A stretch of DNA of 64,000 nt from Hexactinellida sp. DTS-2022 (taxonomy: Eukaryota > Porifera > Hexactinellida). Where the stretch lies: NCBI GenBank assembly GCA_028753945.1, contig JAPNXP010000002.1:4588001-4652000 (forward strand). Direction: 5' to 3'. Position numbers and translations under genes: made by a program. Below, piece by piece: positions 6,997 through 41,720 of the stretch; positions within the stretch are counted from its first letter, which is position 1; each line of letters begins with the position of its first letter. The notes beneath the pieces were generated by a model. It ran no database searches. It had not been told where the DNA came from and saw only the letters and a program-made list of their open reading frames with translations.

Positions 6997-7120
6997 TGGC
7001 CTTCACATGCCAGTTATCGGCTACAGGATTTGCAAATAAAATATTGAGTTCAAATTTTTTCAGTCAAACAAAATTAACACTCTCTTCATCTCATATACCT
7101 TCAATTCCTCGAATTTTGGT

Positions 7121-7172
7121 TCGGAGGTCCTGGTTCGCCCGCTGTAGCTCCTAGCAAACCAGGCACCTCCGA
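7121..7172. repeat. Hairpin near the start of the duplicated segment
   Basis: TCGGAGGTCCTGGTT (7121-7135) is complementary to AACCAGGCACCTCCGA (7157-7172) with one bulge. It begins 10 bp after the first duplicated base. It has no cloverleaf or box A/B, so it is not a tRNA gene. Confidence 0.65.
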
Positions 7173-7560
7173 TGCTGTTCGATGAACATTTTCATTAGCT
7201 AATAATTTATAGTTGAAAGTATAAATATTAAAAACGATGCAAAGTTGGAAGGAAGCTATATCAACGTTATTATCTGTGACTGAATATAATGTAACACATC
7301 ACTTGAGATAAGGTATGAATATGATTGAGTGAATATTTAGGTTGCTCTCTAATTTCATGTAGCGTTTCAGATCTGTATTCTCTCATTCACTTGTGACAAA
7401 ATATGAAATATGCTATAAGAATTTTATGATCGAAGATACTTCGAAATTCTCTAAAATTAATTCTTCTGGCATCACTTAGTATGTAGAATTAATTAATAAT
7501 TATGATTATCCATAGCGGACCACCAAACTATAAAGATATTTGAAACAAATTTCGAAATTA

Positions 7561-7700
7561 GAACTAAGAAACCACTATATAACAATGATATTTGAAGCTA
7601 TTGCAATTTGAACTAAGAAACCACTATACAACAATTATATTTGAAACCTATTACAATTAGTACCAATAAACCACTATACAACAATGATATTTAATTCCAA
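7561..7700 (+). repeat. About 50-bp tandem repeat, 2.8 copies
   Basis: Units start with GAACTAAGAAACCACTATA or a close variant at 7561, 7610 and about 7660, each followed by AACAATgATATTTGAA-type sequence. The array lies upstream of the decayed transposase at 7816. An identical copy is at 21457-21596. Confidence 0.7.
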
Positions 7701-7815
7701 TCAACAACTAGAATATGTGAAACCACACTTGATATTTGGGAAAGTGTAAAAGTATTCTAAAGTGCACTGGTAGATAAAATTGGGCAACTGAAAATTCCGA
7801 TCTTTGTTTGATATT

Positions 7816-8985
7816 ATGGCATCAAGAGATATTGATTACGAGAGTTATTTGGAAAAAGATATTCCCGAACCATTAGAGTCTTTTAGGTCATCAGACCTAC
7901 CTATCATTTCAAACCCATCTGCCTACGATTCTGCCGAATCTTCCTCAAGCAAGTCCGAAAACACTGAATCTGCGTTTGGTCCCTCAACACCAACAACTTC
8001 GGCGAGTACATCGACGTCATTGGGGGCTGCTTTCACTTTTGTCGGGTTGTAGTCACAAACCTCTGACGATCTGTTATCTTCGACAAGTAAACCTAAGAGG
8101 AAGAGACTCGTGAAACGCAAATACCCTTTCAAAAAAGGAGTCTCACAATTCTACTTGCTCAGCTCGAAAAGTCCAGAAAATAGTCAGTCAAAGTCATTCG
8201 CCAAACTTAGTCCCTATGCAATAACATTCATTTTGAAAAGGAGACAAGGGTGTACAATATAAAACTCAGCTCGAATGGATTAGAATATTCTAAAAATCTA
8301 TTACCTGCAAACAATAACCAGATTGTCAAACTAGCCATCCTGAATCACGTGTTTTCTTTCTGAGCTGCGTGGATAATACCTACAGAGGGAAGACACGCTT
8401 ATATGGGCAACTTTGGAGGACGGACTACAAAAATTCCTACTCTTAAAGATGAACTACTTTCATAATGTTGTTGCAGAATTTCAAGCGTCTTGCCGATTGG
8501 AGTTCCTGCAGACAAATGTGTAAATAACAAAGCAATTCGTCTTCGAGGCCATAGGATTTGAATCTGCGTTCATTGCTAGCAGTACACACAACATCGAAAA
8601 TCTGGAAAGACTTTCGACACACGTGTAGTTTCCTGGAATTGAAAGTTCCGGCAAGTACAATCTCCTGGCGTCACATGAAAAACTTCGTTGAGTCAACCAG
8701 ACCGGTTGTCTCGAAGTTGATGGAACTATCAGATAACCACGTCCATTCTTCTACCACTATTTACTGATCATCTTCCAGAAAACCTCCGAAATTACTGTAA
8801 GCTTCGACGCATCGTGGGACCTTAGAGGCCATTTTCCCACTAAATGTTTTGCAGCGGCAATTGATTCGGATTATGGCAAAATCCTTGATTACCAACTCTA
8901 CGACAAAGTATACTACCTTTGTTCCAAATGGCCCGAACAACGGAAGGAGAATAATCCAGAAGATTATGAGGCATACTGGAGTATA
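7816..8985 (+). pseudogene. Decayed Mutator-like DDE transposase
   Basis: From the ATG at 7816 the frame encodes an acidic, Ser-rich N-terminus, meets TAG at 8050-8052, and continues in frame into a basic stretch (KPKRKRLVKRK) followed by Phe/Lys-rich residues. After further breaks, frames at 8600-8767 give a helical region (FLELKVPASTISWRHMKNF). A last open block at 8788-8985 reads EITVSFDASWDLRGHFPTK, then DYGKILDYQ and LCSKWPE...NPEDYEAYW. The S-F/Y-D-x-S/T-W-x-x-R-G-H motif, the G-x-(I/V)-(L/I)-D-Y strand and a later P-E-x-x-E-x-W are hallmarks, as I know them, of the Mutator-like transposases common in insects and other invertebrates. The order N-terminal acidic region, nuclear-localisation-like basic patch, linker, catalytic core fits. 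The second and third catalytic acidic residues would lie beyond 8985, where similarity stops. An identical copy is at 21712-22881. Confidence 0.7.
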
Positions 8986-9499
8986 GAGGCGGCTTTAGAG
9001 TGGGAGCAGGGTGCGCAGCTGCACCCCCTAATCAAAATCAAGCGACCCTTATAGGTGGGCAAAACTTTGAGCAATAGTTATGTTAAAATTTGTGATTTCA
9101 CTTCTATGTATTTTGGCTTAGAAATCTTTTTGATAATTATTGTATCATAAATTATAGACTAAAGTTTCTTATACAAAATACACTTTTTTAGTGTGCTTCT
9201 TCTTATAAAAACGTTATAGTAAAGTTTTATACTATATTCAGGCGCGGCATACTCGGTGCGTAGGTACGGGGAGCGCACTACCACTTTCAAGTGTGTTCCG
9301 GCGTTTTCGCACCTTACTTTCAAAAGATTTCCAAATATCGGTGGCTTTATCACACAATTCTAAAATTAAATGGACTGAAATCGCTAAAAACAAGTACAAA
9401 TTCATGTGTGGTGCAACTGATACGGATGCTACGATCATCAATTGAAAGATTAAAGTATTATCAAATAATAGTCAACAGATTTTGTGCAAATTAATTGGT
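8986..9499. other. No gene; possible degraded element ends
   Basis: A short GC-rich stretch (GTGCGCAGCTGCACCCCC, near 9012-9032) resembles ends often seen in degraded hAT elements, but no duplication or opposite end could be matched. The rest is unassigned. Confidence 0.35.
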
Positions 9500-9507
9500 G
9501 TTTCATC

Positions 9508-10124
9508 CAGTGTTGTAAATCAAATCAAATATTTCAAATATTTGATTTGATTTGATTTGATTTGAAAGAATTTGAATTCTCAAATGATTTGATTTGATTT
9601 GATTTGAAATTATTTGAATCCTCAAATGATTTGATTTGATTTGATTTGAAAATATTTGAATTCTCAATGATTTGATTTGATTTGATTTGAAATTATTTCA
9701 AATCATTTTCAAATCATTTTCAAATCATTTTCAAATCATTTTCAAATCATTTTCAAATCATTTTTCAAATCATTTCCAGATCATTTTCAAATCTTACTCT
9801 TTAAATCATTTTAAAATCGTTTCCAAATCGCTTTAATATAATTTCACGTCATTTTCAATTCAATTTCAAATATATAAGATCATTTTCAAAATTTTTATAC
9901 GTTTTGACAGTGATTCGGAAATGATTTGAAAGTTTCAAATATTTCAAATATTTGATTTGATTTGATTTGAAATTATTTGAAATTTCAAATATTTGATTTG
10001 ATTTGATTTGAAATGATTTGAAATCTCAAATGATTTGAAATGATTTGATTTGAAATAATTTTAAATCAAAAATGATTTGATTTGATTTGATTTGAGAAAA
10101 AAAAATGATTTATTTACAACCCTG
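9508..10124. mobile_element. hAT-type miniature element built of GATTTGATTTG repeats, 617 bp
   Basis: The left end is CAGTGTTGTAAAT and the right end is the complement of CAGGGTTGTAAATAAAT. The flanks are a perfect 8-bp target duplication GTTTCATC (9500-9507 and 10125-10132). Almost the whole interior is GATTTGATTTGAAAT/CAAATCATTTT simple repeat, TGATTTGAT-type on the left and right and the complementary CAAATCATTTT array at about 9690-9790. It could be mistaken for a plain microsatellite, but its ends and duplication show it is a transposed unit. An identical copy is at 23404-24020. Confidence 0.9.
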
Positions 10125-10154
10125 GTTTCATCTCGGTATAGAATCCTTAATTAA

Positions 10155-10875
10155 GGTTAAATTACGGCAGATTCGGGCAAAAAAACACATAAATTTCGTT
10201 TTGAAGTTAGGTGTTTGATTTTCACATATATGTTAGAAGACATTATAGGTAGATCCAATCTGAAGACGAAATTACATTATCTTCTATAATCTCGATTTCA
10301 TGGGCAGTGCAGTTTTATGCTAATACAAAAGTACCCTAGGGGGATTTCTTAGGACTCCACTTGATAGAAAAGTGGTTTTGGGAATCAATATTTGTTATGG
10401 ACATATTCTGAGCTATGTATCACATAGATCATCGTTATGGGCGGTTGGTGACTGGTTTAGAATTTTGATTTGACCTATTTCAAAAAAATTGCGACCTTTT
10501 GAAGGCAAAGAAATGAATAAAATGTCAACCTTTATATGCGATATTTTATGAAATGTTTGAAAAAAATAATTTGGAGTCTTAATTCTGAAATGTAAACCGT
10601 CTACCAACTCCGTACGCATATAATCTTTCAATATTGATTCTGATAACAAACATTGATGGCCGCATTGCCAAAACACCGCATAATATCTACCCCTACTTTT
10701 GGAAATCGCCCTATGAGAGATTTGTATATGCCAAATTTTGAAACCGACAAAAAATAAAAAGTATAATGGATAGAGACATTTTCTTTTCGCTTTATTGCAT
10801 TGTATAGTACAGGGATATATTTCTCACAATTACAGATTGATACAAGAAATTTCATTCACCTGGGGTAATTTAACC
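10155..10875 (+). mobile_element. M1 TTAA element, 721 bp, older copy
   Basis: Flanked by TTAA (10151-10154 and 10876-10879). The terminal repeats are GGTTAAATTAC on the left and its complement on the right. Next to the left TIR is GGCAGATTC and next to the right TIR is CACCTGGG. It is non-coding and noticeably diverged from the M1 group at 11320, 16973, 42403 and 50492. It lies in inverted orientation to the M1 copy only 444 bp away at 11320-12039. TTAA duplication occurs in piggyBac and Kolobok families; the terminal GG does not decide between them. Confidence 0.85.
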
Positions 10876-11044
10876 TTAACCTACGTTCGATTAATCAATT
10901 AAATTAAATTCATAATTTGCAATAATTAATCGAATTCCTTGCAAGTTCCAGCCATATTATCCGAGTCCGCTTTCTTTTGGGACATCCTTTTAGGAAATAA
11001 TTGTGGGATAACGTCGTGATAAATTTTGTAATGTATATTATATG

Positions 11045-12227
11045 CAAGGTTGAAACCGGCTCAACCTGATATCAGTATTCGTGAATATCTGTCTTACCTG
11101 ATATCAGTATTCGTGAATAGTTCCTTCACCGAATATATTTGGTCAACCGAATATATTTGGTCAACCGAATATATTTGGTCAACCAAATTTATTTGATCAA
11201 CCGAATATATTTGGAACAGAACCAAACAACTAGTGTATATTTATTCTGGTTAATCGAGCCAACACCTTTATTCCCCTTAATCGGGTCAAAATGACCTGAT
11301 CACGACGTGATCCAATTAAGGTTAAATTACCCCACGGGAATGAAATCTCTTGTATTAATCTGTAATTGTTAGAAATAGATCAAGGTACGATACAAAGCAA
11401 TAAACAAAAAAGAAAATGTCTCAATATATTATACTTTTTATTTTTTGTCGGTTTCAATATTTGGCTAATACAAATCTCCCATAGGGCGATTTCAAAAAGT
11501 GGTGGTCGATATTATAGTGTAATTTGGCAATGCGGCCATCAATGTTTGTTATCAGAATCAATATTGAAAGATTATAAGCGTACGGAGTTGGTAGTCGGTT
11601 TACATTTTTGAATTATGACTCTGAAATTAATTTTCAAACATTTTATCAAATATCTCATAAAAAACATGACCTTTTTAATGATTTCTTTAGTTCAAAAGGT
11701 CGCAACTTTTTTTATTTAGGTCAAATCAAAATTCTAAACCAGTCACCTACAGCATATAACGATGATCTATGTGATATATCGCACATAATATGTCTTTAGC
11801 TAATAATGATCTTGAGATCGACACACTTATCAGGTGGAGTCTGAAGAAATCCCCCTATGGGACTTTTGTATTACCATAAAACTGCACGCCCCATAAAATC
11901 GAATTTATTCAAAATAATTCGATTTCGTCTTCAGTTTCGATATAGCTATAATGTCTTCTATTATATATGTGAAAATTAAACATCTTACTTCAAAACGAAA
12001 TTTATGTGTTTTTTTACATGAATCTGCCGTAATTTAACCTTAAGCTGAGTCGATTGTTTATAAATATATATTATATTACTCCGTTGACCAAATATATTCG
12101 GTTGATCAAATATATTCGTTTGCAAACAGAATACCAAATACTGATATTCGGAATATAACCAAATATTGTACTATTTGGCGAATATATTTGGTCAAACCGA
12201 ATATTGAACTATTCGGTTGCAACCTTG
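11045..12227. mobile_element. hAT-type miniature element (about 460 bp net), carrying an inserted M1
   Basis: The ends are CAAGGTTGAAACCGG and the complement of CAAGGTTGCAACCGAA. The flanks are a perfect 8-bp target duplication ATTATATG (11037-11044 and 12228-12235). The subterminal zones carry about five tandem GAATATATTTGGTCAACC units on the left (11128-11213) and inverted versions on the right (12080-12215). M1 (11320-12039) is inserted inside, so this element is older than that M1 and younger than the M2-like host fragment. An identical copy is at 24941-26123. Confidence 0.85.
11320..12039 (-). mobile_element. M1 TTAA element, 720 bp, young copy
   Basis: TTAA at 11316-11319 and 12040-12043. 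The TIR is GGTTAAATTAC, with the GGCAGATTC end on the right. It is almost identical to the copies at 42403-43122 and 50492-51211. A central CCCATAGGG.GATTTC block occurs in both halves in inverted order, suggesting the family began as a long foldback. The 81- and 63-residue frames shared by all young copies reflect recent copying and do not resemble proteins. Confidence 0.9.
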
Positions 12228-12350
12228 ATTATATGTCTCACTAGTTAGGATACAGTAAGTATATACTAAATATATAAGAATTGAGTGAATATATGAAAAA
12301 GTCAATCAAGCTATGATAATGCAATGTGAAAAGGAATATTATATGCAGAA

Positions 12351-12412
12351 CAGGAATTGGAACCCAAGATCTACTTATTGTTGGCCATATATGCTAACCA
12401 CTGAGATATATC
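12351..12412 (-). ncRNA. tRNA-like module (degenerate) in M2-like fragment
   Basis: Read on the minus strand there is a box A/D-arm-like TATCTCAGTGGTTAGCA (12392-12408) and, about 30 bp on, a box B/T-arm-like GGGTTCCAATTCC (12353-12365). Spacing and motifs match a tRNA-derived RNA polymerase III promoter. It is not a functional tRNA, because the acceptor stem does not pair. Confidence 0.55.
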
Positions 12413-12547
12413 GGCTTATTAATTTGGGGTTTATATTATTTAATGTTAAGATTAAAAAAAGTATAAAACATCTTATTTTACACGTGTTTGCTGTAATTTT
12501 AAAAGCAAAAAGTATCCAAGAGATAAATAGGATTTTCGTAGGATTAA

Positions 12548-13804
12548 GGATGCTTAGGGTGAAATTTAGTGTTTTTTGTACAAAATTGAAATCTGATTTT
12601 ATACTGTGAAATGAATCTAATGTATCATAAAATTATGTGAGAAGTGAAATTTTTAAAAAAAATATTCTGCAAAGTCTTCAAAATGTCAATTTATCATGTC
12701 ATTATTGATGATGTAGCTTTTATTATTATCTCAATTGACATTCCTTGGTTTTATATGTACAATATCGTTCACTTATATACTTTATGTATTTAAACTAACA
12801 TTTATATGCGCAAATATCTCAGTGATTAGCTTATATTGCCAAAACCAGTTGATAATGGGCTAGAAATTCTGATCTGCATATTTTTTGTATTTTTTATACA
12901 TCACCAACAGATTAATTTACTATATTATATAATTCAACTCAATTGTCATATATATTAGTATATTCATACTGTATCCCAACTAGTGTAGACATATTATACA
13001 CATTAGAGCATTAATCACTACGGTTGCAATGATTTAATCGCTGAAAATGATGTCCCAAAAGAAAGCGGACTCCATTAGTATGCCAGAAACTTGCACAGAA
13101 TTTGATTTAATCAAGTCGTTTGTTTACTATGATGTTTCAATACATATTTAGTATATAGTATGAAAATTATCTAGTATATTGAAACTAAATCCGGTTATAA
13201 TACGGACAAATTTAATAGTACAAATGCATTTCCCATTAAAAAAACCTCAGCCTTCAATTACTCAATTATTGTTTTTATGACATATCCCGAATTTTATCTA
13301 TTAAAGTTCATATGGGATTGCTTTCAAAAATTCTTATATAGTTCTTAATGGTATAAAGATCATTTTGCAAGCTCATTGATGCGAACTAACGATTAGTGTC
13401 TGAGTAGAGACCAAGCAAGGAGCAAAAATACCACTTTTTGGCCTCTTTTTTGACGAATTTTAGGTTTCGTAAGTTAAGAATTGGTTAAACTTGGGATAGG
13501 AGTCTGGTGAGCTAAGCAAATGTAGTGCTAATAGTACTGATCAATCATACAAATTTTTGGAGCTATAGAGAATATACTTTATAATATTTAATTAAGTGAA
13601 ATCTAATAAAACAGTATTACCCCTATGGGGAGGCATTTCCTAAAGAATTTAATGCTACTCGAAAAATTGTTTGGACTTAGACATGCTGTATACATTTTAT
13701 GCTTAGTTATGCAATTACAGAGCAGATTGGAGAATTACACTTCAATATCTACAAAGACGCTAAAACCACCCATACCGCTAATACATTTTTCACCCTAAGC
13801 ATCC
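12548..13804 (+). mobile_element. M2 TTAA element, 1257 bp
   Basis: TTAA at 12544-12547 and 13805-13808. The TIR GGATGCTTAGGGTGAAA is matched by its complement on the right. It contains the tRNA-like module (12813-12878), about 265-330 bp from the left end and reading inward, and the GTCCCAAAAGAAAGCGGACT block at about 13050-13072. The inner subterminal motif GTATTAGCGGTATGGGT (as complement, near 13765-13785) recurs in the other M2 copies. No coding capacity. An identical copy is at 26444-27700. Confidence 0.9.
12813..12878 (+). ncRNA. tRNA-like module inside M2
   Basis: A-box-like TATCTCAGTGATTAGC at 12815-12830 and a weakened B-box-like GGGCTAGAAATTC at 12857-12869. Position and orientation relative to the M2 end are the same as in the copies at 39421, 50138 and 62040. 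Confidence 0.5.
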
Positions 13805-13868
13805 TTAAGTAATATTTTATCTATACAGTATTATAATGATACTGTCAGCTCCAGTTTAGTGGAATTAA

Positions 13869-14881
13869 GGACATAGCCCCTAGAAGAAGAAAATTCATTG
13901 ATTTCAAGTTTGATAGCGTTTTTGGACTTTACTATGTAGTAGTAGTTTACCTGGAAAATAGAATTTAATTAGCTTGTATTACTATACAGTTATTGACTAT
14001 AATATAATTTATCCTATATGAATCCATATAGCCGTTGCCTAGTGATATCTATACAACAGTAAACAGTCAACTTAGTTTGAGGTTGTATTTCAACTCTAAT
14101 AGTATTTGATTGAAAGATACTTGGAAGCTTTTGTGGAATTTCTACTTATTTCATTTTTTATGTAGATTTTTCCTAATATATCTTTTATTGGTGGAATATT
14201 TTTATGACCAAATTATTATCAATTTTTCTATCTTTAAAATGTGAATTCTGAAACTAGTATCTTACTCTACATACGAAAAGGGACAACTTTGCAATTGATT
14301 TAGAGTATCTATCTTTATATTTTTTGAGATAACCCTTGGCAACGACCATCTTTTGGGGTGAAATTTCTTTTGGACAAGATGAAGACACTGGATCACTTGT
14401 GAATAATTTCGTCACCCAAAATTGATCTACGTCACCCAAAAATTTTCGGATTGAGATTTACGCCATATTCGGGAATTTTATACATGTATGTTTAACCGTC
14501 TTGAACTGCGCTTAGGAGACTACATATATCATTTTTGATAATGCCATTCAGTATACAGCTACCGATCACTCTATATGTCAATAATACTTCATTGGAGTCT
14601 ATCTAGCATAGTTTTCCTACTTCCACTTACACCCCTGAATATGCCCACTGTTATAAGGGCCCCCAGGAGGCCCAAATAAAACTATTAGCCCAAATTAGGG
14701 ACCTCCCAAGGGGGCCCTAGCGGGGATTCCTCGCTGGCTTGTATGGCTAGGACGCCCATGGGAAGTACTTATATATAGTGAACAAATAATAAGTTTTAAT
14801 TAGTTCAACAATTAATCGCACATGTACAACCCTTAGTTGAATATTTTTTTAATTTTCGGTCAAATCGAAGGGGCAATCTCC
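13869..14881 (+). mobile_element. M3 TTAA element, 1013 bp
   Basis: TTAA at 13865-13868 and 14882-14885. The left end is GGACATAGCCCCT and the right end is the complement of GGAGATTGCCCCTTCGA, an imperfect TIR. A second copy spans 45865-48133 and shares the internal sequence (TTGATTTCAAGTTTGATAGC near the left; the CTACATACG..AAGG..CAACTTTGC zone near the right). Non-coding. An identical copy is at 27765-28777. Confidence 0.8.
14656..14718. repeat. GC-rich hairpin within M3
   Basis: AGGGCCCCCAGGAGG (14656-14670) pairs with CCTCCCAAGGGGGCCCT (14702-14718) apart from a two-base bulge. It is absent from the other M3 copy as far as I can see, so it may be a small insertion. Confidence 0.6.
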
Positions 14882-14885
14882 TTAA

Positions 14886-15813
14886 TTTGCTCTATACCTA
14901 TCTAGTAAATATCCATAATACTAGAAGTTGCGAATTCATATATCCTCGGTTATAGTTTAATCAAATTTCTATACTATACTGATCCATACTAGCCAAGAAA
15001 AATGTATTCACTATCTAGAATTATTTTTTCGAATAGTAACATCAATTATGAATCGTTCCTTACTCTATTCATCTGTTCCCATAGGAAGTACAATTTTGAT
15101 TTTATAACTCCATTTTTATAAATTTTATTTAGTATTTTTGTTGAAAATTATATTTATTTTTCACTAAGAAATATTTCTCTGTTTGAAATTATTAAAATCG
15201 AAATTCTGCTCCCAATGGGATCTAGTACTGGTACATATATGCCTTTTTGCAATATATGTCTGTTTCAAAAATTTATAGATTTCTCTGGATCATCTTTCTG
15301 AAAAGTGTTTAATATTATTTTGAAATTTACTTATTTTATAATAATTCAGAATCATAAACAACAACATTTGTGGCATAAATTTTTTTTGTCAATTTTTTCC
15401 GAAAAGCGACCACAAAGGTGATTTTTTTAAAAAAATTCCAGATTCGTTTTCTTGACATATTTTTGGTCTTTATCTATTACTTGCGCGCTTCGCTTGCTAG
15501 GTCGCTTCGAGGCAGAACACAACCACACACCCACCGCTTATCGGTTATTGTGGTTTAGAATGCGTAAATAGGCCTAAATAGTCAAATTTACAATTGTGAA
15601 ATATAAGGATTACGTCATCTTGCGATAATGACTGCGTATATTGTGGGCGATCTGGTCTAACGAACCTGTCCGCATCATTACTGTGAATGTTCTATTAAGT
15701 AGTAAGTTGTTTTGTCCGACAGGGGCCATTACACTTGGAACTGAATACTAAAGTAATTGATTAATTTCAAAAATATATGCATTATTGTTACAATAGAGTG
15801 GATCTATTTTTAA
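14886..15813. other. No gene or repeat recognised
   Basis: AT-rich sequence apart from a short GC-rich patch near 15483-15515 (GCGCGCTTCGCTTGC). Nothing else to assign. Confidence 0.4.
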
Positions 15814-15815
15814 TA

Positions 15816-18113
15816 CAGTCGACTCCGCTTAAGGGTGTCCATGGAAGGAGAATAATGGGAAATTTCCGCAAGAAATACACTGAATTCAATTTTTTATTTA
15901 ATGACCAAGCACGGCAGAAGGACGATAACTAACGTTTGTACATGGTTTAGAATCTCTTCCAAGCGTATATTCAGAGTTATGAGCTATTTTGTACAGCGGA
16001 TCACTGGTTTCACCTCTTTTAACGATTATCTCTACTGTATTCCTCAACAATGGTAGGATTGGTGATATCATTACTCTATCCAAGCAATCACTGACGAAAA
16101 TAATCAACAATTGATCAAAAAAAATAATTAAAAAGTGAAAATTAAGACTTTTATGGCCTATAATCACATTCGAGGGTACGTTTTCTTCTCAATTTTCTAT
16201 CTCAGACGCCCGAGGTGCTAGGAACAAAAAAAACGTCTCAAAATACTCGCAATACCCGACTTCCTATCCGTCAATAATACATTTCGTGACCCTAATACGC
16301 ACCGTTTTCAAAATGTTCCCTATATGGGCATGTAATGTGCCCATTTTTGATGACACAGCAAATATCCTCTCTCCTAAAGTATAAACTCTAGAACTTAGTA
16401 CTAAACATCTAATCACATCAATATCCCAATACAAACTCATTGGAAGAACGCATGAGACCATTATCCAATTGGTTACATTCCTGTAAATTCACATACCCAT
16501 ATATGGTGGTGTCCTTTCAGCAGTGTGCCCATAAACCCTCAAATTAATTAATATGCTAGAGCTTAGCTCTAACTTCCCAGAAATATCAATAATCCATCGC
16601 AAGTTTGAAGGTAAAGTTTTATAAGGTATAAAACTATTTTCCACAAAATTGCAACCCCTCTTTACCATTTTTCCTGGAATATTTGGATTGACCAGATGCC
16701 TGACTAAATGCCAGACTTTTTTGAGAAAGATACAACCGATTAAGACTCAAAAATTTTTATACACAATGAATGATACTTACCTTCAAACCAGGTTTTTTTT
16801 TTTCGCAGAAATCAGCAATAATTCATGGTTATAATGCGCTTACATTGAAATTTCGATGATAATATATACTTTTTCGGACTCCGGAGCCTTCATAATTAAT
16901 TATTGCCTCATGAAAGTAATTAATCGCATCCTGAGTCAACGGGGCGGTAATAATAGACCTATTAGAAGTTAAGGTTAAATTACCCCACGGGAATGAAATC
17001 TCTTGTATTAATCTGTAATTGTTAGAAATAGATCAAGGTACGATACAAAGCAATAAACAAAAAAGAAAATGTCTCAATATATTATACTTTTTATTTTTTG
17101 TCGGTTTCAATATTTGGCTAATACAAATCTCCCATAGGGCGATTTCAAAAAGTGTTGGTCGATATTATAGTGTAATTTGGCAATGCGGCCATCAATGTTT
17201 GTTATCAGAATCAATATTGAAAGATTATAAGCGTACGGAGTTGGTAGTCGGTTTACATTTTTGAATTATGACTCTTATTTTTCAAACATTTTATCAAATA
17301 TCTCATAAAAAACATGACCTTTTTAATGATTTCTTTAGTTCAAAAGGTCGCAACTTTTTTTATTTAGGTCAAATCAAAATTCTAAACCAGTCACCTACAG
17401 CATATAACGATGATCTATGTGATATATCGCACATAATATGTCTTTAGCTAATAATGATCTTGAGATCGACACACTTATCAGGTGGAGTCTGAAGAAATCC
17501 CCCTATGGGACTTTTGTATTACCATAAAACTGCACGCCCCATAAAATCGAATTTATTCAAAATAATTCGATTTCGTTTTCAGTTTCGATATAGCTATAAT
17601 GTCTTCTATTATATATGTGAAAATTAAACATCTTACTTCAAAACGAAATTTATGTGTTTTTTTACATGAATCTGCCGTAATTTAACCTTAAGTATTGAAT
17701 TAGAACATTCTAGTACAAGTATGAATCAGTTTACGAATGCATAAAAACTATGCTATATACATAGACGCTCCTATTCTAATATAGAAAGAATCTATACTTA
17801 GCGACAAAAATTTGTTCTAGATGTATATTAATGACTTCTAAGTTATGCTCACCCCAGCCCTCAGTGATACTTCACTAATGGAAATAAATGCTCATTTGGA
17901 TAATCCTTTCATTAATAAAAAATACCCATCCTTGGACACCGTTAATAGAGTCACCTCGGGACCAGGTTGTTTTGACCCAATTAAGCGGAGAAACCGATTA
18001 ACCGAAGATATTGTAAGCCAAAATGTAATTCTGTCCTATAAATCCTGTGAAATTTTGTCCCGATTAAGCGGAGAAACCGATTAACCGGTGGCTCTATTAA
18101 GCGGAGTTGACTG
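15816..18113 (-). mobile_element. pogo/Tigger-type non-autonomous element, 2.3 kb with nested M1
   Basis: The ends are CAGTCGACTCCGCTTAA and the complement of CAGTCAACTCCGCTTAA, flanked by TA (15814-15815 and 18114-18115). TIRs of the CAGTCxACTCCGC type with TA duplication are typical of pogo/Tigger relatives of Tc1/mariner. Inner ATTAAGCGGAGAAACCGATTA motifs repeat near the right end. No transposase frame survives. M1 (16973-17687) is inserted within. Its left 1 kb matches 38240-40480 in reverse orientation. An identical copy is at 29712-32009. Confidence 0.8.
16973..17687 (-). mobile_element. M1 TTAA element, 715 bp, young copy
   Basis: TTAA at 16969-16972 and 17688-17691. It differs from the copy at 11320-12039 by a five-base deletion after GACTC and a few substitutions. 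It is inserted in the pogo-type element. Confidence 0.9.
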
Positions 18114-18474
18114 TACATTATTTATACCTATGTACAGTGGAAACTACTAGTTAATAATAACGACCACCCAAGGGACTGACCAAAGATAACCGTTATATAC
18201 AGGTTGTTCATGCGAGAAATCATGTGGACCTATTCTATCTACGTGGCAGTCATAGCAGGTTCTAATGTAGCCATATTATATACCTTTATGATCTTTGTAC
18301 TCCAAAATATCATTTTCTAAATATAGTATTATGCCAATTCTTTCAAGAGTTAAACAAGTATTCAGGAATCTCTTAAAAACGGGAGGCGAGCCCCCCCGCC
18401 CCCCCCTGAACCTGACGCCCCTGGGATACAGCACTAACAAAAGAGACTAACTTGCATAACATTATTAGAGAAAT
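18114..18474. other. Spacer with hAT-like end
   Basis: A poly-C rich patch ends in ACGCCCCTG at about 18414-18422. Its complement, CAGGGGCGT, is the usual start of many hAT elements. No opposite end or 8-bp duplication was found. The rest is unassigned. Confidence 0.35.
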
Positions 18475-20427: not shown

Positions 20428-20490
20428 ATCGCACTGAGGTTGTTTCAACGTGGGGCGTTTACATAAATCAAAATTATTATTATTTATATT
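20428..20490 (+). repeat. LINE 3' UTR and ATT tail
   Basis: CGCACTGAGG followed by AAATTATTATTATTTATATT is a short 3' tail made of ATT units, as usual for this LINE group. It marks the right edge of the insertion. Confidence 0.7.
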
Positions 20491-20530
20491 ATCTGAACAG
20501 CATTTCGATAATACAACTGTGCACTCATGA

Positions 20531-20906: not shown

Positions 20907-21006
20907 NNNNNNNNNNNNNNNNNNNNNNNNNNNNNNNNNNNNNNNNNNNNNNNNNNNNNNNNNNNNNNNNNNNNNNNNNNNNNNNNNNNNNNNNNNNNNN
21001 NNNNNN
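20907..21006. other. Assembly gap, exactly 100 N
   Basis: One hundred N is the common placeholder for a scaffold join of unknown size. It lies exactly between the end of copy 1 and the start of copy 2 of the 13.8-kb segment. Confidence 0.98.
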
Positions 21007-22881: not shown

Positions 22882-23403
22882 GAGGCGGCTTTAGAGTGGG
22901 AGCAGGGTGCGCAGCTGCACCCCCTAATCAAAATCAAGCGACCCTTATAGGTGGGCAAAACTTTGAGCAATAGTTATGTTAAAATTTGTGATTTCACTTC
23001 TATGTATTTTGGCTTAGAAATCTTTTTGATAATTATTGTATCATAAATTATAGACTAAAGTTTCTTATACAAAATACACTTTTTTAGTGTGCTTCTTCTT
23101 ATAAAAACGTTATAGTAAAGTTTTATACTATATTCAGGCGCGGCATACTCGGTGCGTAGGTACGGGGAGCGCACTACCACTTTCAAGTGTGTTCCGGCGT
23201 TTTCGCACCTTACTTTCAAAAGATTTCCAAATATCGGTGGCTTTATCACACAATTCTAAAATTAAATGGACTGAAATCGCTAAAAACAAGTACAAATTCA
23301 TGTGTGGTGCAACTGATACGGATGCTACGATCATCAATTGAAAGATTAAAGTATTATCAAATAATAGTCAACAGATTTTGTGCAAATTAATTGGTGTTTC
23401 ATC

Positions 23404-24020
23404 CAGTGTTGTAAATCAAATCAAATATTTCAAATATTTGATTTGATTTGATTTGATTTGAAAGAATTTGAATTCTCAAATGATTTGATTTGATTTGATT
23501 TGAAATTATTTGAATCCTCAAATGATTTGATTTGATTTGATTTGAAAATATTTGAATTCTCAATGATTTGATTTGATTTGATTTGAAATTATTTCAAATC
23601 ATTTTCAAATCATTTTCAAATCATTTTCAAATCATTTTCAAATCATTTTCAAATCATTTTTCAAATCATTTCCAGATCATTTTCAAATCTTACTCTTTAA
23701 ATCATTTTAAAATCGTTTCCAAATCGCTTTAATATAATTTCACGTCATTTTCAATTCAATTTCAAATATATAAGATCATTTTCAAAATTTTTATACGTTT
23801 TGACAGTGATTCGGAAATGATTTGAAAGTTTCAAATATTTCAAATATTTGATTTGATTTGATTTGAAATTATTTGAAATTTCAAATATTTGATTTGATTT
23901 GATTTGAAATGATTTGAAATCTCAAATGATTTGAAATGATTTGATTTGAAATAATTTTAAATCAAAAATGATTTGATTTGATTTGATTTGAGAAAAAAAA
24001 ATGATTTATTTACAACCCTG
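23404..24020. mobile_element. hAT-type GATTTG-repeat element, duplicate
   Basis: Identical to 9508-10124, with the GTTTCATC duplication at 23396-23403 and 24021-24028. Confidence 0.88.
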
Positions 24021-24050
24021 GTTTCATCTCGGTATAGAATCCTTAATTAA

Positions 24051-24771
24051 GGTTAAATTACGGCAGATTCGGGCAAAAAAACACATAAATTTCGTTTTGA
24101 AGTTAGGTGTTTGATTTTCACATATATGTTAGAAGACATTATAGGTAGATCCAATCTGAAGACGAAATTACATTATCTTCTATAATCTCGATTTCATGGG
24201 CAGTGCAGTTTTATGCTAATACAAAAGTACCCTAGGGGGATTTCTTAGGACTCCACTTGATAGAAAAGTGGTTTTGGGAATCAATATTTGTTATGGACAT
24301 ATTCTGAGCTATGTATCACATAGATCATCGTTATGGGCGGTTGGTGACTGGTTTAGAATTTTGATTTGACCTATTTCAAAAAAATTGCGACCTTTTGAAG
24401 GCAAAGAAATGAATAAAATGTCAACCTTTATATGCGATATTTTATGAAATGTTTGAAAAAAATAATTTGGAGTCTTAATTCTGAAATGTAAACCGTCTAC
24501 CAACTCCGTACGCATATAATCTTTCAATATTGATTCTGATAACAAACATTGATGGCCGCATTGCCAAAACACCGCATAATATCTACCCCTACTTTTGGAA
24601 ATCGCCCTATGAGAGATTTGTATATGCCAAATTTTGAAACCGACAAAAAATAAAAAGTATAATGGATAGAGACATTTTCTTTTCGCTTTATTGCATTGTA
24701 TAGTACAGGGATATATTTCTCACAATTACAGATTGATACAAGAAATTTCATTCACCTGGGGTAATTTAACC
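24051..24771 (+). mobile_element. M1 element, duplicate of 10155-10875
   Basis: Same sequence and flanking TTAA. Confidence 0.85.
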
Positions 24772-24940
24772 TTAACCTACGTTCGATTAATCAATTAAAT
24801 TAAATTCATAATTTGCAATAATTAATCGAATTCCTTGCAAGTTCCAGCCATATTATCCGAGTCCGCTTTCTTTTGGGACATCCTTTTAGGAAATAATTGT
24901 GGGATAACGTCGTGATAAATTTTGTAATGTATATTATATG

Positions 24941-26123
24941 CAAGGTTGAAACCGGCTCAACCTGATATCAGTATTCGTGAATATCTGTCTTACCTGATAT
25001 CAGTATTCGTGAATAGTTCCTTCACCGAATATATTTGGTCAACCGAATATATTTGGTCAACCGAATATATTTGGTCAACCAAATTTATTTGATCAACCGA
25101 ATATATTTGGAACAGAACCAAACAACTAGTGTATATTTATTCTGGTTAATCGAGCCAACACCTTTATTCCCCTTAATCGGGTCAAAATGACCTGATCACG
25201 ACGTGATCCAATTAAGGTTAAATTACCCCACGGGAATGAAATCTCTTGTATTAATCTGTAATTGTTAGAAATAGATCAAGGTACGATACAAAGCAATAAA
25301 CAAAAAAGAAAATGTCTCAATATATTATACTTTTTATTTTTTGTCGGTTTCAATATTTGGCTAATACAAATCTCCCATAGGGCGATTTCAAAAAGTGGTG
25401 GTCGATATTATAGTGTAATTTGGCAATGCGGCCATCAATGTTTGTTATCAGAATCAATATTGAAAGATTATAAGCGTACGGAGTTGGTAGTCGGTTTACA
25501 TTTTTGAATTATGACTCTGAAATTAATTTTCAAACATTTTATCAAATATCTCATAAAAAACATGACCTTTTTAATGATTTCTTTAGTTCAAAAGGTCGCA
25601 ACTTTTTTTATTTAGGTCAAATCAAAATTCTAAACCAGTCACCTACAGCATATAACGATGATCTATGTGATATATCGCACATAATATGTCTTTAGCTAAT
25701 AATGATCTTGAGATCGACACACTTATCAGGTGGAGTCTGAAGAAATCCCCCTATGGGACTTTTGTATTACCATAAAACTGCACGCCCCATAAAATCGAAT
25801 TTATTCAAAATAATTCGATTTCGTCTTCAGTTTCGATATAGCTATAATGTCTTCTATTATATATGTGAAAATTAAACATCTTACTTCAAAACGAAATTTA
25901 TGTGTTTTTTTACATGAATCTGCCGTAATTTAACCTTAAGCTGAGTCGATTGTTTATAAATATATATTATATTACTCCGTTGACCAAATATATTCGGTTG
26001 ATCAAATATATTCGTTTGCAAACAGAATACCAAATACTGATATTCGGAATATAACCAAATATTGTACTATTTGGCGAATATATTTGGTCAAACCGAATAT
26101 TGAACTATTCGGTTGCAACCTTG
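24941..26123. mobile_element. hAT-type element, duplicate of 11045-12227
   Basis: Same ends and ATTATATG duplication; contains the M1 copy 25216-25935. Confidence 0.84.
25216..25935 (-). mobile_element. M1 element, duplicate of 11320-12039
   Basis: Same sequence and flanking TTAA. Confidence 0.88.
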
Positions 26124-26443
26124 ATTATATGTCTCACTAGTTAGGATACAGTAAGTATATACTAAATATATAAGAATTGAGTGAATATATGAAAAAGTCA
26201 ATCAAGCTATGATAATGCAATGTGAAAAGGAATATTATATGCAGAACAGGAATTGGAACCCAAGATCTACTTATTGTTGGCCATATATGCTAACCACTGA
26301 GATATATCGGCTTATTAATTTGGGGTTTATATTATTTAATGTTAAGATTAAAAAAAGTATAAAACATCTTATTTTACACGTGTTTGCTGTAATTTTAAAA
26401 GCAAAAAGTATCCAAGAGATAAATAGGATTTTCGTAGGATTAA

Positions 26444-27700
26444 GGATGCTTAGGGTGAAATTTAGTGTTTTTTGTACAAAATTGAAATCTGATTTTATAC
26501 TGTGAAATGAATCTAATGTATCATAAAATTATGTGAGAAGTGAAATTTTTAAAAAAAATATTCTGCAAAGTCTTCAAAATGTCAATTTATCATGTCATTA
26601 TTGATGATGTAGCTTTTATTATTATCTCAATTGACATTCCTTGGTTTTATATGTACAATATCGTTCACTTATATACTTTATGTATTTAAACTAACATTTA
26701 TATGCGCAAATATCTCAGTGATTAGCTTATATTGCCAAAACCAGTTGATAATGGGCTAGAAATTCTGATCTGCATATTTTTTGTATTTTTTATACATCAC
26801 CAACAGATTAATTTACTATATTATATAATTCAACTCAATTGTCATATATATTAGTATATTCATACTGTATCCCAACTAGTGTAGACATATTATACACATT
26901 AGAGCATTAATCACTACGGTTGCAATGATTTAATCGCTGAAAATGATGTCCCAAAAGAAAGCGGACTCCATTAGTATGCCAGAAACTTGCACAGAATTTG
27001 ATTTAATCAAGTCGTTTGTTTACTATGATGTTTCAATACATATTTAGTATATAGTATGAAAATTATCTAGTATATTGAAACTAAATCCGGTTATAATACG
27101 GACAAATTTAATAGTACAAATGCATTTCCCATTAAAAAAACCTCAGCCTTCAATTACTCAATTATTGTTTTTATGACATATCCCGAATTTTATCTATTAA
27201 AGTTCATATGGGATTGCTTTCAAAAATTCTTATATAGTTCTTAATGGTATAAAGATCATTTTGCAAGCTCATTGATGCGAACTAACGATTAGTGTCTGAG
27301 TAGAGACCAAGCAAGGAGCAAAAATACCACTTTTTGGCCTCTTTTTTGACGAATTTTAGGTTTCGTAAGTTAAGAATTGGTTAAACTTGGGATAGGAGTC
27401 TGGTGAGCTAAGCAAATGTAGTGCTAATAGTACTGATCAATCATACAAATTTTTGGAGCTATAGAGAATATACTTTATAATATTTAATTAAGTGAAATCT
27501 AATAAAACAGTATTACCCCTATGGGGAGGCATTTCCTAAAGAATTTAATGCTACTCGAAAAATTGTTTGGACTTAGACATGCTGTATACATTTTATGCTT
27601 AGTTATGCAATTACAGAGCAGATTGGAGAATTACACTTCAATATCTACAAAGACGCTAAAACCACCCATACCGCTAATACATTTTTCACCCTAAGCATCC
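26444..27700 (+). mobile_element. M2 element, duplicate of 12548-13804
   Basis: Same TIRs and TTAA, with the tRNA-like module at 26709-26774 (plus). Confidence 0.88.
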
Positions 27701-27764
27701 TTAAGTAATATTTTATCTATACAGTATTATAATGATACTGTCAGCTCCAGTTTAGTGGAATTAA

Positions 27765-28777
27765 GGACATAGCCCCTAGAAGAAGAAAATTCATTGATTT
27801 CAAGTTTGATAGCGTTTTTGGACTTTACTATGTAGTAGTAGTTTACCTGGAAAATAGAATTTAATTAGCTTGTATTACTATACAGTTATTGACTATAATA
27901 TAATTTATCCTATATGAATCCATATAGCCGTTGCCTAGTGATATCTATACAACAGTAAACAGTCAACTTAGTTTGAGGTTGTATTTCAACTCTAATAGTA
28001 TTTGATTGAAAGATACTTGGAAGCTTTTGTGGAATTTCTACTTATTTCATTTTTTATGTAGATTTTTCCTAATATATCTTTTATTGGTGGAATATTTTTA
28101 TGACCAAATTATTATCAATTTTTCTATCTTTAAAATGTGAATTCTGAAACTAGTATCTTACTCTACATACGAAAAGGGACAACTTTGCAATTGATTTAGA
28201 GTATCTATCTTTATATTTTTTGAGATAACCCTTGGCAACGACCATCTTTTGGGGTGAAATTTCTTTTGGACAAGATGAAGACACTGGATCACTTGTGAAT
28301 AATTTCGTCACCCAAAATTGATCTACGTCACCCAAAAATTTTCGGATTGAGATTTACGCCATATTCGGGAATTTTATACATGTATGTTTAACCGTCTTGA
28401 ACTGCGCTTAGGAGACTACATATATCATTTTTGATAATGCCATTCAGTATACAGCTACCGATCACTCTATATGTCAATAATACTTCATTGGAGTCTATCT
28501 AGCATAGTTTTCCTACTTCCACTTACACCCCTGAATATGCCCACTGTTATAAGGGCCCCCAGGAGGCCCAAATAAAACTATTAGCCCAAATTAGGGACCT
28601 CCCAAGGGGGCCCTAGCGGGGATTCCTCGCTGGCTTGTATGGCTAGGACGCCCATGGGAAGTACTTATATATAGTGAACAAATAATAAGTTTTAATTAGT
28701 TCAACAATTAATCGCACATGTACAACCCTTAGTTGAATATTTTTTTAATTTTCGGTCAAATCGAAGGGGCAATCTCC
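27765..28777 (+). mobile_element. M3 element, duplicate of 13869-14881
   Basis: Same ends and TTAA; GC hairpin at 28552-28614. Confidence 0.78.
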
Positions 28778-28781
28778 TTAA

Positions 28782-29709
28782 TTTGCTCTATACCTATCTA
28801 GTAAATATCCATAATACTAGAAGTTGCGAATTCATATATCCTCGGTTATAGTTTAATCAAATTTCTATACTATACTGATCCATACTAGCCAAGAAAAATG
28901 TATTCACTATCTAGAATTATTTTTTCGAATAGTAACATCAATTATGAATCGTTCCTTACTCTATTCATCTGTTCCCATAGGAAGTACAATTTTGATTTTA
29001 TAACTCCATTTTTATAAATTTTATTTAGTATTTTTGTTGAAAATTATATTTATTTTTCACTAAGAAATATTTCTCTGTTTGAAATTATTAAAATCGAAAT
29101 TCTGCTCCCAATGGGATCTAGTACTGGTACATATATGCCTTTTTGCAATATATGTCTGTTTCAAAAATTTATAGATTTCTCTGGATCATCTTTCTGAAAA
29201 GTGTTTAATATTATTTTGAAATTTACTTATTTTATAATAATTCAGAATCATAAACAACAACATTTGTGGCATAAATTTTTTTTGTCAATTTTTTCCGAAA
29301 AGCGACCACAAAGGTGATTTTTTTAAAAAAATTCCAGATTCGTTTTCTTGACATATTTTTGGTCTTTATCTATTACTTGCGCGCTTCGCTTGCTAGGTCG
29401 CTTCGAGGCAGAACACAACCACACACCCACCGCTTATCGGTTATTGTGGTTTAGAATGCGTAAATAGGCCTAAATAGTCAAATTTACAATTGTGAAATAT
29501 AAGGATTACGTCATCTTGCGATAATGACTGCGTATATTGTGGGCGATCTGGTCTAACGAACCTGTCCGCATCATTACTGTGAATGTTCTATTAAGTAGTA
29601 AGTTGTTTTGTCCGACAGGGGCCATTACACTTGGAACTGAATACTAAAGTAATTGATTAATTTCAAAAATATATGCATTATTGTTACAATAGAGTGGATC
29701 TATTTTTAA
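28782..29709. other. No gene recognised (duplicate of 14886-15813)
   Basis: Same unassigned AT-rich sequence as in copy 1. Confidence 0.4.
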
Positions 29710-29711
29710 TA

Positions 29712-32009
29712 CAGTCGACTCCGCTTAAGGGTGTCCATGGAAGGAGAATAATGGGAAATTTCCGCAAGAAATACACTGAATTCAATTTTTTATTTAATGA
29801 CCAAGCACGGCAGAAGGACGATAACTAACGTTTGTACATGGTTTAGAATCTCTTCCAAGCGTATATTCAGAGTTATGAGCTATTTTGTACAGCGGATCAC
29901 TGGTTTCACCTCTTTTAACGATTATCTCTACTGTATTCCTCAACAATGGTAGGATTGGTGATATCATTACTCTATCCAAGCAATCACTGACGAAAATAAT
30001 CAACAATTGATCAAAAAAAATAATTAAAAAGTGAAAATTAAGACTTTTATGGCCTATAATCACATTCGAGGGTACGTTTTCTTCTCAATTTTCTATCTCA
30101 GACGCCCGAGGTGCTAGGAACAAAAAAAACGTCTCAAAATACTCGCAATACCCGACTTCCTATCCGTCAATAATACATTTCGTGACCCTAATACGCACCG
30201 TTTTCAAAATGTTCCCTATATGGGCATGTAATGTGCCCATTTTTGATGACACAGCAAATATCCTCTCTCCTAAAGTATAAACTCTAGAACTTAGTACTAA
30301 ACATCTAATCACATCAATATCCCAATACAAACTCATTGGAAGAACGCATGAGACCATTATCCAATTGGTTACATTCCTGTAAATTCACATACCCATATAT
30401 GGTGGTGTCCTTTCAGCAGTGTGCCCATAAACCCTCAAATTAATTAATATGCTAGAGCTTAGCTCTAACTTCCCAGAAATATCAATAATCCATCGCAAGT
30501 TTGAAGGTAAAGTTTTATAAGGTATAAAACTATTTTCCACAAAATTGCAACCCCTCTTTACCATTTTTCCTGGAATATTTGGATTGACCAGATGCCTGAC
30601 TAAATGCCAGACTTTTTTGAGAAAGATACAACCGATTAAGACTCAAAAATTTTTATACACAATGAATGATACTTACCTTCAAACCAGGTTTTTTTTTTTC
30701 GCAGAAATCAGCAATAATTCATGGTTATAATGCGCTTACATTGAAATTTCGATGATAATATATACTTTTTCGGACTCCGGAGCCTTCATAATTAATTATT
30801 GCCTCATGAAAGTAATTAATCGCATCCTGAGTCAACGGGGCGGTAATAATAGACCTATTAGAAGTTAAGGTTAAATTACCCCACGGGAATGAAATCTCTT
30901 GTATTAATCTGTAATTGTTAGAAATAGATCAAGGTACGATACAAAGCAATAAACAAAAAAGAAAATGTCTCAATATATTATACTTTTTATTTTTTGTCGG
31001 TTTCAATATTTGGCTAATACAAATCTCCCATAGGGCGATTTCAAAAAGTGTTGGTCGATATTATAGTGTAATTTGGCAATGCGGCCATCAATGTTTGTTA
31101 TCAGAATCAATATTGAAAGATTATAAGCGTACGGAGTTGGTAGTCGGTTTACATTTTTGAATTATGACTCTTATTTTTCAAACATTTTATCAAATATCTC
31201 ATAAAAAACATGACCTTTTTAATGATTTCTTTAGTTCAAAAGGTCGCAACTTTTTTTATTTAGGTCAAATCAAAATTCTAAACCAGTCACCTACAGCATA
31301 TAACGATGATCTATGTGATATATCGCACATAATATGTCTTTAGCTAATAATGATCTTGAGATCGACACACTTATCAGGTGGAGTCTGAAGAAATCCCCCT
31401 ATGGGACTTTTGTATTACCATAAAACTGCACGCCCCATAAAATCGAATTTATTCAAAATAATTCGATTTCGTTTTCAGTTTCGATATAGCTATAATGTCT
31501 TCTATTATATATGTGAAAATTAAACATCTTACTTCAAAACGAAATTTATGTGTTTTTTTACATGAATCTGCCGTAATTTAACCTTAAGTATTGAATTAGA
31601 ACATTCTAGTACAAGTATGAATCAGTTTACGAATGCATAAAAACTATGCTATATACATAGACGCTCCTATTCTAATATAGAAAGAATCTATACTTAGCGA
31701 CAAAAATTTGTTCTAGATGTATATTAATGACTTCTAAGTTATGCTCACCCCAGCCCTCAGTGATACTTCACTAATGGAAATAAATGCTCATTTGGATAAT
31801 CCTTTCATTAATAAAAAATACCCATCCTTGGACACCGTTAATAGAGTCACCTCGGGACCAGGTTGTTTTGACCCAATTAAGCGGAGAAACCGATTAACCG
31901 AAGATATTGTAAGCCAAAATGTAATTCTGTCCTATAAATCCTGTGAAATTTTGTCCCGATTAAGCGGAGAAACCGATTAACCGGTGGCTCTATTAAGCGG
32001 AGTTGACTG
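29712..32009 (-). mobile_element. pogo/Tigger-type element, duplicate of 15816-18113
   Basis: Same TIRs and TA flanks; nested M1 at 30869-31583. Confidence 0.78.
30869..31583 (-). mobile_element. M1 element, duplicate of 16973-17687
   Basis: Same sequence and flanking TTAA. Confidence 0.88.
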
Positions 32010-32370
32010 TACATTATTTATACCTATGTACAGTGGAAACTACTAGTTAATAATAACGACCACCCAAGGGACTGACCAAAGATAACCGTTATATACAGGT
32101 TGTTCATGCGAGAAATCATGTGGACCTATTCTATCTACGTGGCAGTCATAGCAGGTTCTAATGTAGCCATATTATATACCTTTATGATCTTTGTACTCCA
32201 AAATATCATTTTCTAAATATAGTATTATGCCAATTCTTTCAAGAGTTAAACAAGTATTCAGGAATCTCTTAAAAACGGGAGGCGAGCCCCCCCGCCCCCC
32301 CCTGAACCTGACGCCCCTGGGATACAGCACTAACAAAAGAGACTAACTTGCATAACATTATTAGAGAAAT

Positions 32371-33856
32371 CACAGTGGCACGAAACGGCAATTTGGTGGT
32401 TTGAGTATTTATGTAAACTTTAAGGCTATAAAATGCATTATTGACCTATAGGTTATCGAACCTAAAAAGTCGATTGACATATTCAGATAATTTGTAAAGC
32501 TTATGGTTCACAAGTTATGACGTCATGGGAGTTATGCTACAATTTCCAAAAAGTATAAATACAACATATCCAATAGATGAGATTTTTTAATCAAGTTCTG
32601 GTAACAGAAGTGAATTAACAAGCAGTTCTTGATTACTAATATCTTCTTCTAACATTCAATTATGTGGTACTGGTTTCTTTAGCTTTCTATTGAGTAAGAG
32701 GACTGGGTCGCTTTGACATAACATTCGAGTAAAAACATCCTTAATATTATCTTCAAAACTGAACTTACGAGATAAGCGTTCTCTATATCTACGGATTAAC
32801 TTATTACTCGCCTCAAGACGTTCTTCAGATAGTTGTTCCAGCCCTAGTCCATTATTGAAAGCTGAGATTATATTAGGTGCATGTGCCAACACTTTGTGTA
32901 ACGTAGGCGTAATATTTGCCCAAGGAAAAGAATTCAAAATCAAGATATATAGTTTCTGGCATACTACCGTTAGTTCTTCTGTGTCTATTCGTCTTCCACA
33001 ATTATACACTCTCAAGATAGCTCCGAGGTAGGTATGAATGTCGATTATAGCCTCTTTGGATTCTGTCGGTATTGTTGACAGCACCCATTATAAGAAATCC
33101 TTCTCACTGTTATTTTTTCGTACTAAACATCGCCTAGCTACATTTCCTGTGGTTGAAGTTCCGCATTGTGAAGAAGCAAAATCAATCATGATATTTAACT
33201 TTTCTTTTAGTAATCCACAGAGAAAATTCTTCGCACTATGGACTTTCGGTGAACTAGGTGACCATTTTCTAACTCCGGCACTCAGATGACCTAACAAATG
33301 CATTAACCAACTAAAACATCGAAGATATGCGTGTAAAGGTGAACTGGGAATTATGTCTATGTCAGATAACGGGACATGAGTGAGATTAAAACGTTGGTCA
33401 GTAGTTAGCGAGAGGAATTGTTCTTCGTTTAATTCTTGGAATATAACCTTAGCATCACTAATAAACCTATTAATTGGAAAAACATCTCTGACGATATCTA
33501 CATCATGGATCTGTTTGATTGTGGCAGTACAGAACTGGCAGGACGCACCTCCAGCACCGCTAAGAATTCCGGCCATTTTACCATCCAACTGTGAACGTAA
33601 GATCACTACGCTGGCATGATGACTATTAATTAAATCAAGTCCATTTGCTTCAATATCAGCAGTTTCTTTGTTGATCATTGTTTTCATAAGAAAACTCACA
33701 TTTTCCTGGTTTTCTGGAAGTGCAAGAATTGTGACTGGTCTAATAGAGAAGGGAGAGTTGGGTACAGAGTTTTTCCATACAGTATTATTCTTTTCATCCG
33801 AAATAGTTAAAACTTTAAAACCAAAGATGATAAAATTCTTCGTAGTGATATCTGGA
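32371..33856 (-). mobile_element. Transib element, duplicate of 18475-19960
   Basis: Same CACAGTG terminus (32371-32377) and LINE junction. Confidence 0.78.
32656..33856 (-). pseudogene. Transib transposase, duplicate
   Basis: Identical to 18760-19960, with the same in-frame TAA (33088-33090). Sharing the same single stop with no other difference supports one locus assembled twice rather than two ageing copies. Confidence 0.86.
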
Positions 33857-34323
33857 TGAGGTACTGCTTGTTGATATGGCACAGCATACAACATATTCTT
33901 CGGAAACTACATTGGCTACTAGTTAATAAACGTATTTTTTTCAAACTCCTCCTTATAGTATATAAGTCTCTCAGTGGACTTGCACCTGCATACATAGATG
34001 ATCTACTGATAACTTATATTCCAACAAGGACATTAAGATCAAGCACACTCAGGCTCCTTGCAATACCTTCTGGAGCATGTAGTTGCTCAGGGTATGGTGA
34101 CAGGGCTTTTTCTATTGCTGCACTGAGAGAATGGAACAAATTGCCTGTTTCTTTGAGAAGAGCTCAAAGTGTAGAAACTTTTAAGACACAGCTAAAACGT
34201 ATCTTTTCAATGTATAAACGCTGTTCACGTTTTAACCCAATTCCTGCACATATACTTACTTCTGCACTGTTTCTTGTACATAGTATATATTATTTGAACT
34301 GTTTGTATGTATTGTTATTGTAA
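33856..34323 (+). pseudogene. LINE C-terminal end, duplicate of 19960-20427
   Basis: Same sequence; 3' tail with ATT repeats to 34386. Confidence 0.83.
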
Positions 34324-34426
34324 ATCGCACTGAGGTTGTTTCAACGTGGGGCGTTTACATAAATCAAAATTATTATTATTTATATTATCTGAACAGCATT
34401 TCGATAATACAACTGTGCACTCATGA

Positions 34427-35334
34427 TATTTATCACATTCGCATAGGTTAGAAGTAGCTAGAGGGGTAGCAGATACATCTGTAAATGCTTATTTCTATGA
34501 TCAATTTGATTATGTGGAGAACACAAACTTAGCACTTAATTATGGTAACCTAAAAAAGGTTAGAAGTTCTGCAGTACTGCGAAATGCTAAATTTCATTTG
34601 TCTAGTTTACATTGGTATTCTAATGATAACTGGCCTGAGTTAATTAGCTTACAACAGTATTATAGAAATAGTGTTATTGGTCTTCATGTTAGAGGTTACA
34701 TACAGTCACTAAGTTATAATCCATTTATTGTACATATGTACACTGAAGATCAAATAATAATATTGAAATTGTTTAAAGATACAAGAATTGTTCTTCACTT
34801 AGATGCCACAGGTCATTTGTCAGGAAAATAGAACCCTCAGTAAAGAAAGTATTCTATTACGCTCTTACTGTAAGACATCCTACTTACTCCACTAGTCCAA
34901 TTCCACTAGCAGAAATGATTAGTTCAGGTCACACCAGTGCTGAAATAAGTTATTTTTTACACAAATGGTCCAGTGATGCAATGAAAATACTGGGCGATCT
35001 AAACATTTCACAAGTTGAAATAGATTTCAGCTTAATTCACAGTTCTTGTAGTATTTTCCTCAAGTGTGATATAGATACTTATCTCCATAAGTGTTGGAAT
35101 ATGGTAGATGTAAATTCTGCAGTTAATGAAAAGGACTTTAAAGTAATTCTTCTCTTATGTTCGGCTCATTTAATACACAGCATAGGATTTCATATAAATA
35201 AAAAATTTACACAACAAAAAGATGTGAGAAAACTGTTTTTTCATTGTATCAGATTTATTGTACGCGCTGTTGAAATGACAAGTGTCAATAATTTATTCCA
35301 ATCTTTATGCATTGTATTTATGAGTAGTTCTTAA
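34427..35334 (+). pseudogene. Mutator-like transposase, N-terminal and catalytic region
   Basis: The frame is open from 34427 (no clear start; preceded by the LINE tail) through LEVARGVADTSVNAYFYDQF, then IVLHLDATGHLSGK, and ends at TAG (34829-34831). One base lower, the frame resumes with VKKVFYYALTV, SPIPLAEMIS, HTSAEISYFLHKW, VEIDFSLIHSSCSIF and LLCSAHLIHSIGFHI, and stops at 35334. The LDATG, ExDFS and C-S-A-H-x-x-H-S blocks match, from memory, the two catalytic Asp sites and C/H motif of a Mutator-like family widespread in aphids and other invertebrates. The break falls in an A run (GGAAAATAG, about 34821-34830) and one missing A would restore one frame. The C-terminal part is missing. 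It ends at a TTAA, where the block shared with 1168-1221 begins. Confidence 0.68.
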
Positions 35335-41716: not shown

Positions 41717-41720
41717 TTAA

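Follow-up and report, generated by a model that had tools for sequence, protein, structure and literature searches.

A perfect 13.8-kb repeat on both sides of a 100-N gap: probably a false duplication made by two overlapping contigs

False duplications are reported among the commonest assembly errors in the passages of PMC8081667 that deal with them, and those of the homotype kind are described there as often lying at contig boundaries and as being about one read long. According to the corresponding sections of PMC9516828, false duplications usually have a gap between their copies; heterozygous k-mers are the criterion of the heterotype kind, which is marked by half of the read depth on each copy, and the homotype kind is described with a depth below half. 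Assembly gaps and breaks are also known to cluster at long and highly identical true duplications, as stated in the parts of PMC10234299 and PMC7545148 that concern such sites. In the portions of the literature covered, nothing on point was found about overlapping contig ends associated with 100-N gaps.

The stretch of DNA that was analysed here (64,000 bases in the whole, hereafter the window) carries one run of N and, on either side of it, one copy of the same segment. The features needed below are the following.

7111..20906, plus strand: copy 1, with which the left contig ends (13,796 bases), identical to 21007-34802 with 0 differences
18760..20010, minus strand: putative Transib/RAG1-like transposase pieces, two adjoining ORFs of copy 1, with Pfam RAG1 and PDB 6pqn matches
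20531..20906, plus strand: frame of copy 1 that the gap interrupts, still open at base 20906
20907..21006, no strand: placeholder gap of 100 N; the window has no other N run
21007..34802, plus strand: copy 2, with which the right contig begins (13,796 bases), identical to 7111-20906 with 0 differences
32656..33906, minus strand: putative Transib/RAG1-like pieces of copy 2, identical ORFs in an identical segment, not to be counted again
34427..34831, plus strand: same frame in copy 2 (stop-to-stop reading), which crosses the overlap edge 34802/34803 and ends in a stop

A preliminary description of this DNA had reported a perfect 13.8-kb duplication around a 100-N gap. The base-by-base comparison of 7111-20906 with 21007-34802 (offset 13,896 throughout) bears this out with 0 differences at 13,796 of 13,796 positions, and self-BLAST of the window gives the pair as a single match of 13,796 bases at 100.000%. 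The inner ends of both copies abut the N run exactly (20906 and 21007); a run of 100 N is the convention for a gap whose length is not known. The suffix of the left contig is the prefix of the right contig, which together form a dovetail overlap. Leftward of 7111 the left contig continues, and copy 2 has only the gap on that side, in line with the earlier statement that copy 2 begins at the gap with no left flank; beyond 34802 it is the right contig that continues, and copy 1 has only the gap there. The exact identity of the dovetail and the position of the gap are direct observations. Because the segments are identical, the same frames, tandem arrays and dispersed repeats are found in both copies, as had been described; for example, the tandem array at 9540-10115 recurs at 23436-24011. 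The last and first kilobases at the contig ends have a GC content of 0.332 and 0.348 (0.343 for the window), and nothing in this ordinary composition suggests unreadable sequence.

The pair is set apart from the other long repeats of the window. When copy 2 is disregarded, exact repeats of the whole window, direct or inverted, reach 553 bases at most, so that a perfect match of 13.8 kb is far beyond chance; a chance repeat of this length is ruled out. By its coordinates, the 553-base repeat falls within a dispersed family of about 730 bases, which has four copies without copy 2 (11316-12044, 16969-17692, 42399-43126 and 50487-51215), 98.9-99.7% alike pairwise among the matches listed. These copies are the least diverged of the other long repeats, with pairwise differences of 0.28-1.1% among the matches listed. 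Such a divergence would lead one to expect 38-151 differences over 13.8 kb, against 0 observed, although this yardstick consists of dispersed elements of undated origin and does not alone exclude a younger event.

The copy at 16969-17692 has perfectly complementary ends of 15 bases that start with TTAAGG, and the 730-base family looks like a young family of non-autonomous elements with TTAA-type ends. Its more diverged relatives are found at 10151-10879, 41717-42381 and 45179-45650, and a short one at 5731-5888. On the minus strand, the overlapping frames of 54996-56696 look like one broken transposase; the part of it that was scanned (54996-55754) matches Pfam DDE_Tnp_1_7 with an E-value of 4.3e-09, which we take to be a piggyBac-type domain. 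Two further tandem repeats were seen at 51700-52063 (163-base unit, 2.2 copies) and 57629-58031 (151-base unit, 2.7 copies).

The Transib/RAG1-like transposase predicted in the segment is broken into pieces. The ORF at 18760-19191 matches Pfam RAG1 with an E-value of 6.3e-05 and 21.7 bits, under the curated cut-off of 25. The adjoining ORF at 19192-20010 matches no Pfam family (0 found) and is related to PDB 6pqn, a "putative DNA-mediated transposase" that is presumably a Transib (E-value of 1.7e-11, best stretch at residues 40-140 of the 272 of the query). The Pfam scan took in 10 of the 26 listed ORFs of the window, and two of these 10 matched at E 0.01. No tRNA gene was found (0), nor any known structural RNA at the gathering thresholds (0).

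A duplication junction placed at the observed outer edges of the overlap would have 0 bases of microhomology on both sides and, among the best 20 alignments within 3 kb on either side of the two outer edges, the top one is inverted (E-value of 0.11) and the top direct one has an E-value of 1.3. Nothing therefore hints at a recombination substrate, since microhomology is absent and the edges share no convincing similarity; tandem duplications often, though not always, have microhomology or flanking direct repeats where they begin and end. When 1 kb around each edge was compared with the window (blastn and tblastx, E of at most 0.01), the left edge gave 6 rows and the right one 0, none of which crosses an edge, these counts excluding rows at 100% identity, so that a short perfect match would drop out too. 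The edge 7110/7111 lies in sequence without any ORF of at least 110 aa.

At the other edge, the frame of copy 2 gains 9 residues beyond the overlap, the first codon straddling 34802/34803 and the stop lying at 34829-34831. The edge 34802 thus breaks no frame, as expected if the left contig merely happened to stop there. Copy 1 had been said to end mid-gene: the stop-to-stop frame from 20531 is indeed open to the gap, but it is an ORF without any Pfam family, probably part of a mobile element, rather than a demonstrated gene. It is followed in copy 2 by a further ORF in another frame (34777-35334), and no Pfam family was matched by either. The two overlapping frames of 34427-35334 may belong to one protein, which would probably be derived from a mobile element. 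Relatives of the frame crossing 34802/34803 were sought in viral and prokaryotic collections: none of 22 pattern matches in viral_contigs and none of 78 in genome_contigs was confirmed, and there was no match in phages at E 1e-5. Exact strings across the edges likewise gave 0 matches (26 bases across 7110/7111 in genome_contigs and in viral_contigs; 23 bases across 34802/34803 in viral_contigs). Absence from such collections is uninformative for an apparent eukaryote.

Taken together, the dovetail geometry at the gap, the perfect identity, the presumably read-scale length and the edges devoid of microhomology or clear flanking repeats argue for two overlapping contigs laid end to end. The pair is very probably a homotype false duplication, an ordinary assembly artefact and not biology; the end-to-end placement put forward in the preliminary description is strongly supported, short of proof. 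Its formation could be pictured as follows. The genome would consist of the left flank, one 13,796-base segment and the right flank. The assembler would have stopped the left contig at 20906 and started the next one at the base equivalent to 7111, so that the two contigs would share an overlap of read-scale length. The scaffolder would then have ordered and oriented the contigs, left the overlap unmerged and put in 100 N, and this nominal gap would stand for minus 13,796 bases. We infer in this way the single genomic copy, the origin from read overlap and the negative length of the gap. An overlap of 13,796 bases fits long reads, "read-scale" being an assumption about the platform and the read length. 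Given the perfect agreement of the copies, the two contig ends may well derive from a common set of reads, or else from reads of very high accuracy.

The alternative that survives best, albeit an unlikely one, is a real and very recent tandem duplication with a unit of at least 13.8 kb. It would include a broken Transib along with several other repeats, no base of it would have changed, and its inner ends would be hidden in the gap because the assembler could not cross the join. A gap covering both inner ends would yield the same dovetail. Inner ends lying at the gap, which had been presented as the pattern of contigs placed end to end, are not diagnostic alone, since every duplication with its inner ends concealed by a gap must show them. 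If a rate of 2.9e-9 per site per generation is assumed, the absence of any difference in 13,796 bases permits an age of as much as about 37,500 generations (95%), the limit being about 109,000 generations at 1e-9 and about 11,000 at 1e-8 (assumed rates likewise). Simple repeats change faster than other sites, which lowers these limits by an unquantified factor. The earlier argument that independent copies would differ in their simple repeats was nevertheless too strong, as a duplication dating as far back as some 10^4 generations could still be identical throughout. That assemblies break at long identical duplications, including true segmental ones (PMC10234299 and PMC7545148, in the parts cited above), is a counterweight to the artefact reading. 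Against a tandem duplication stand the 0 bases of microhomology and the lack of evident direct repeats flanking the edges as observed (these could lie elsewhere if the hidden unit were larger), as well as the divergence of at least 0.28% between the least diverged other long repeats (among the matches listed). It would also have to be extremely young and, in addition, to have its assembly break fall in the join; false duplications, by contrast, count among the commonest assembly errors in the relevant passages of PMC8081667.

A heterotype (haplotypic) false duplication, in which contigs from the two parental chromosomes would both have been kept, often accounts for duplicates that adjoin each other next to a gap, as far as the sections of PMC8081667 and PMC9516828 on this type go. 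It would require 13.8 kb to be homozygous to account for 0 differences, whereas heterozygous k-mers are the criterion published in PMC9516828 (same sections). Haplotypic duplication is disfavoured by this lack of differences and appears very improbable. Half depth on each copy had been proposed as a confirming sign of the artefact; in these sections of PMC9516828, it marks the heterotype kind and the depth of the homotype kind is lower.

It is scarcely credible that a long identical repeat occurs at two distinct places and that contigs ending in it were wrongly joined, their flanks not being neighbours: the overlap alone proves shared sequence and not that the flanks belong together, but the order and orientation given by the scaffolder are presumably independent evidence of neighbourhood. 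A circular element overlapping itself is ruled out, as the two outer flanks differ.

If the pair is a homotype false duplication, its significance is one of quality control only. The window with the segment counted once has 50,104 bases, versus 64,000 raw. The artefact would double the count of Transib-like pieces in the window (2 raw, 1 corrected), in agreement with the earlier advice to count the segment once, Transib included. It would also lift the close copies of the 730-base repeat from 4 to 6, the corrected starts being 11316, 16969, 42399 and 50487 among the matches listed, and would make one frame appear twice, once truncated and once longer. Copy counts for the scaffold, gene gains and repeat ages (where identity is read as a very recent move) should be based on the 50,104 bases and not on the 64,000. 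The heterotype reading, if true, would have the same practical outcome, i.e. the segment would be counted once.

Comparison with the described systems points in the same direction. At the observed edges, the pair displays neither the microhomology nor the flanking direct repeats associated with true tandem duplications, although edges inside the gap may differ. It resembles the heterotype type, as treated in the passages of PMC8081667 and PMC9516828 consulted, in that the duplicate adjoins across a gap, but copies of that type differ by haplotype, unlike the present ones (0 differences). The diagnosis relies on read depth and k-mer copy number in PMC8081667 and the cases of PMC9516828 come with discordant read pairs and coverage, in the same passages; the pair described here was judged from the assembled sequence. 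As in the cases given there in PMC9516828, a gap lies between copies on one scaffold and a frame is truncated in one of them. Its closest counterpart is the homotype type as characterised in PMC8081667: the pair lies at a contig boundary, its inner ends abutting the 100-N run, it has no haplotype-specific variants between its assembled copies (0 of 13,796 positions differ) and its length of 13,796 bases would fit that of a long read.
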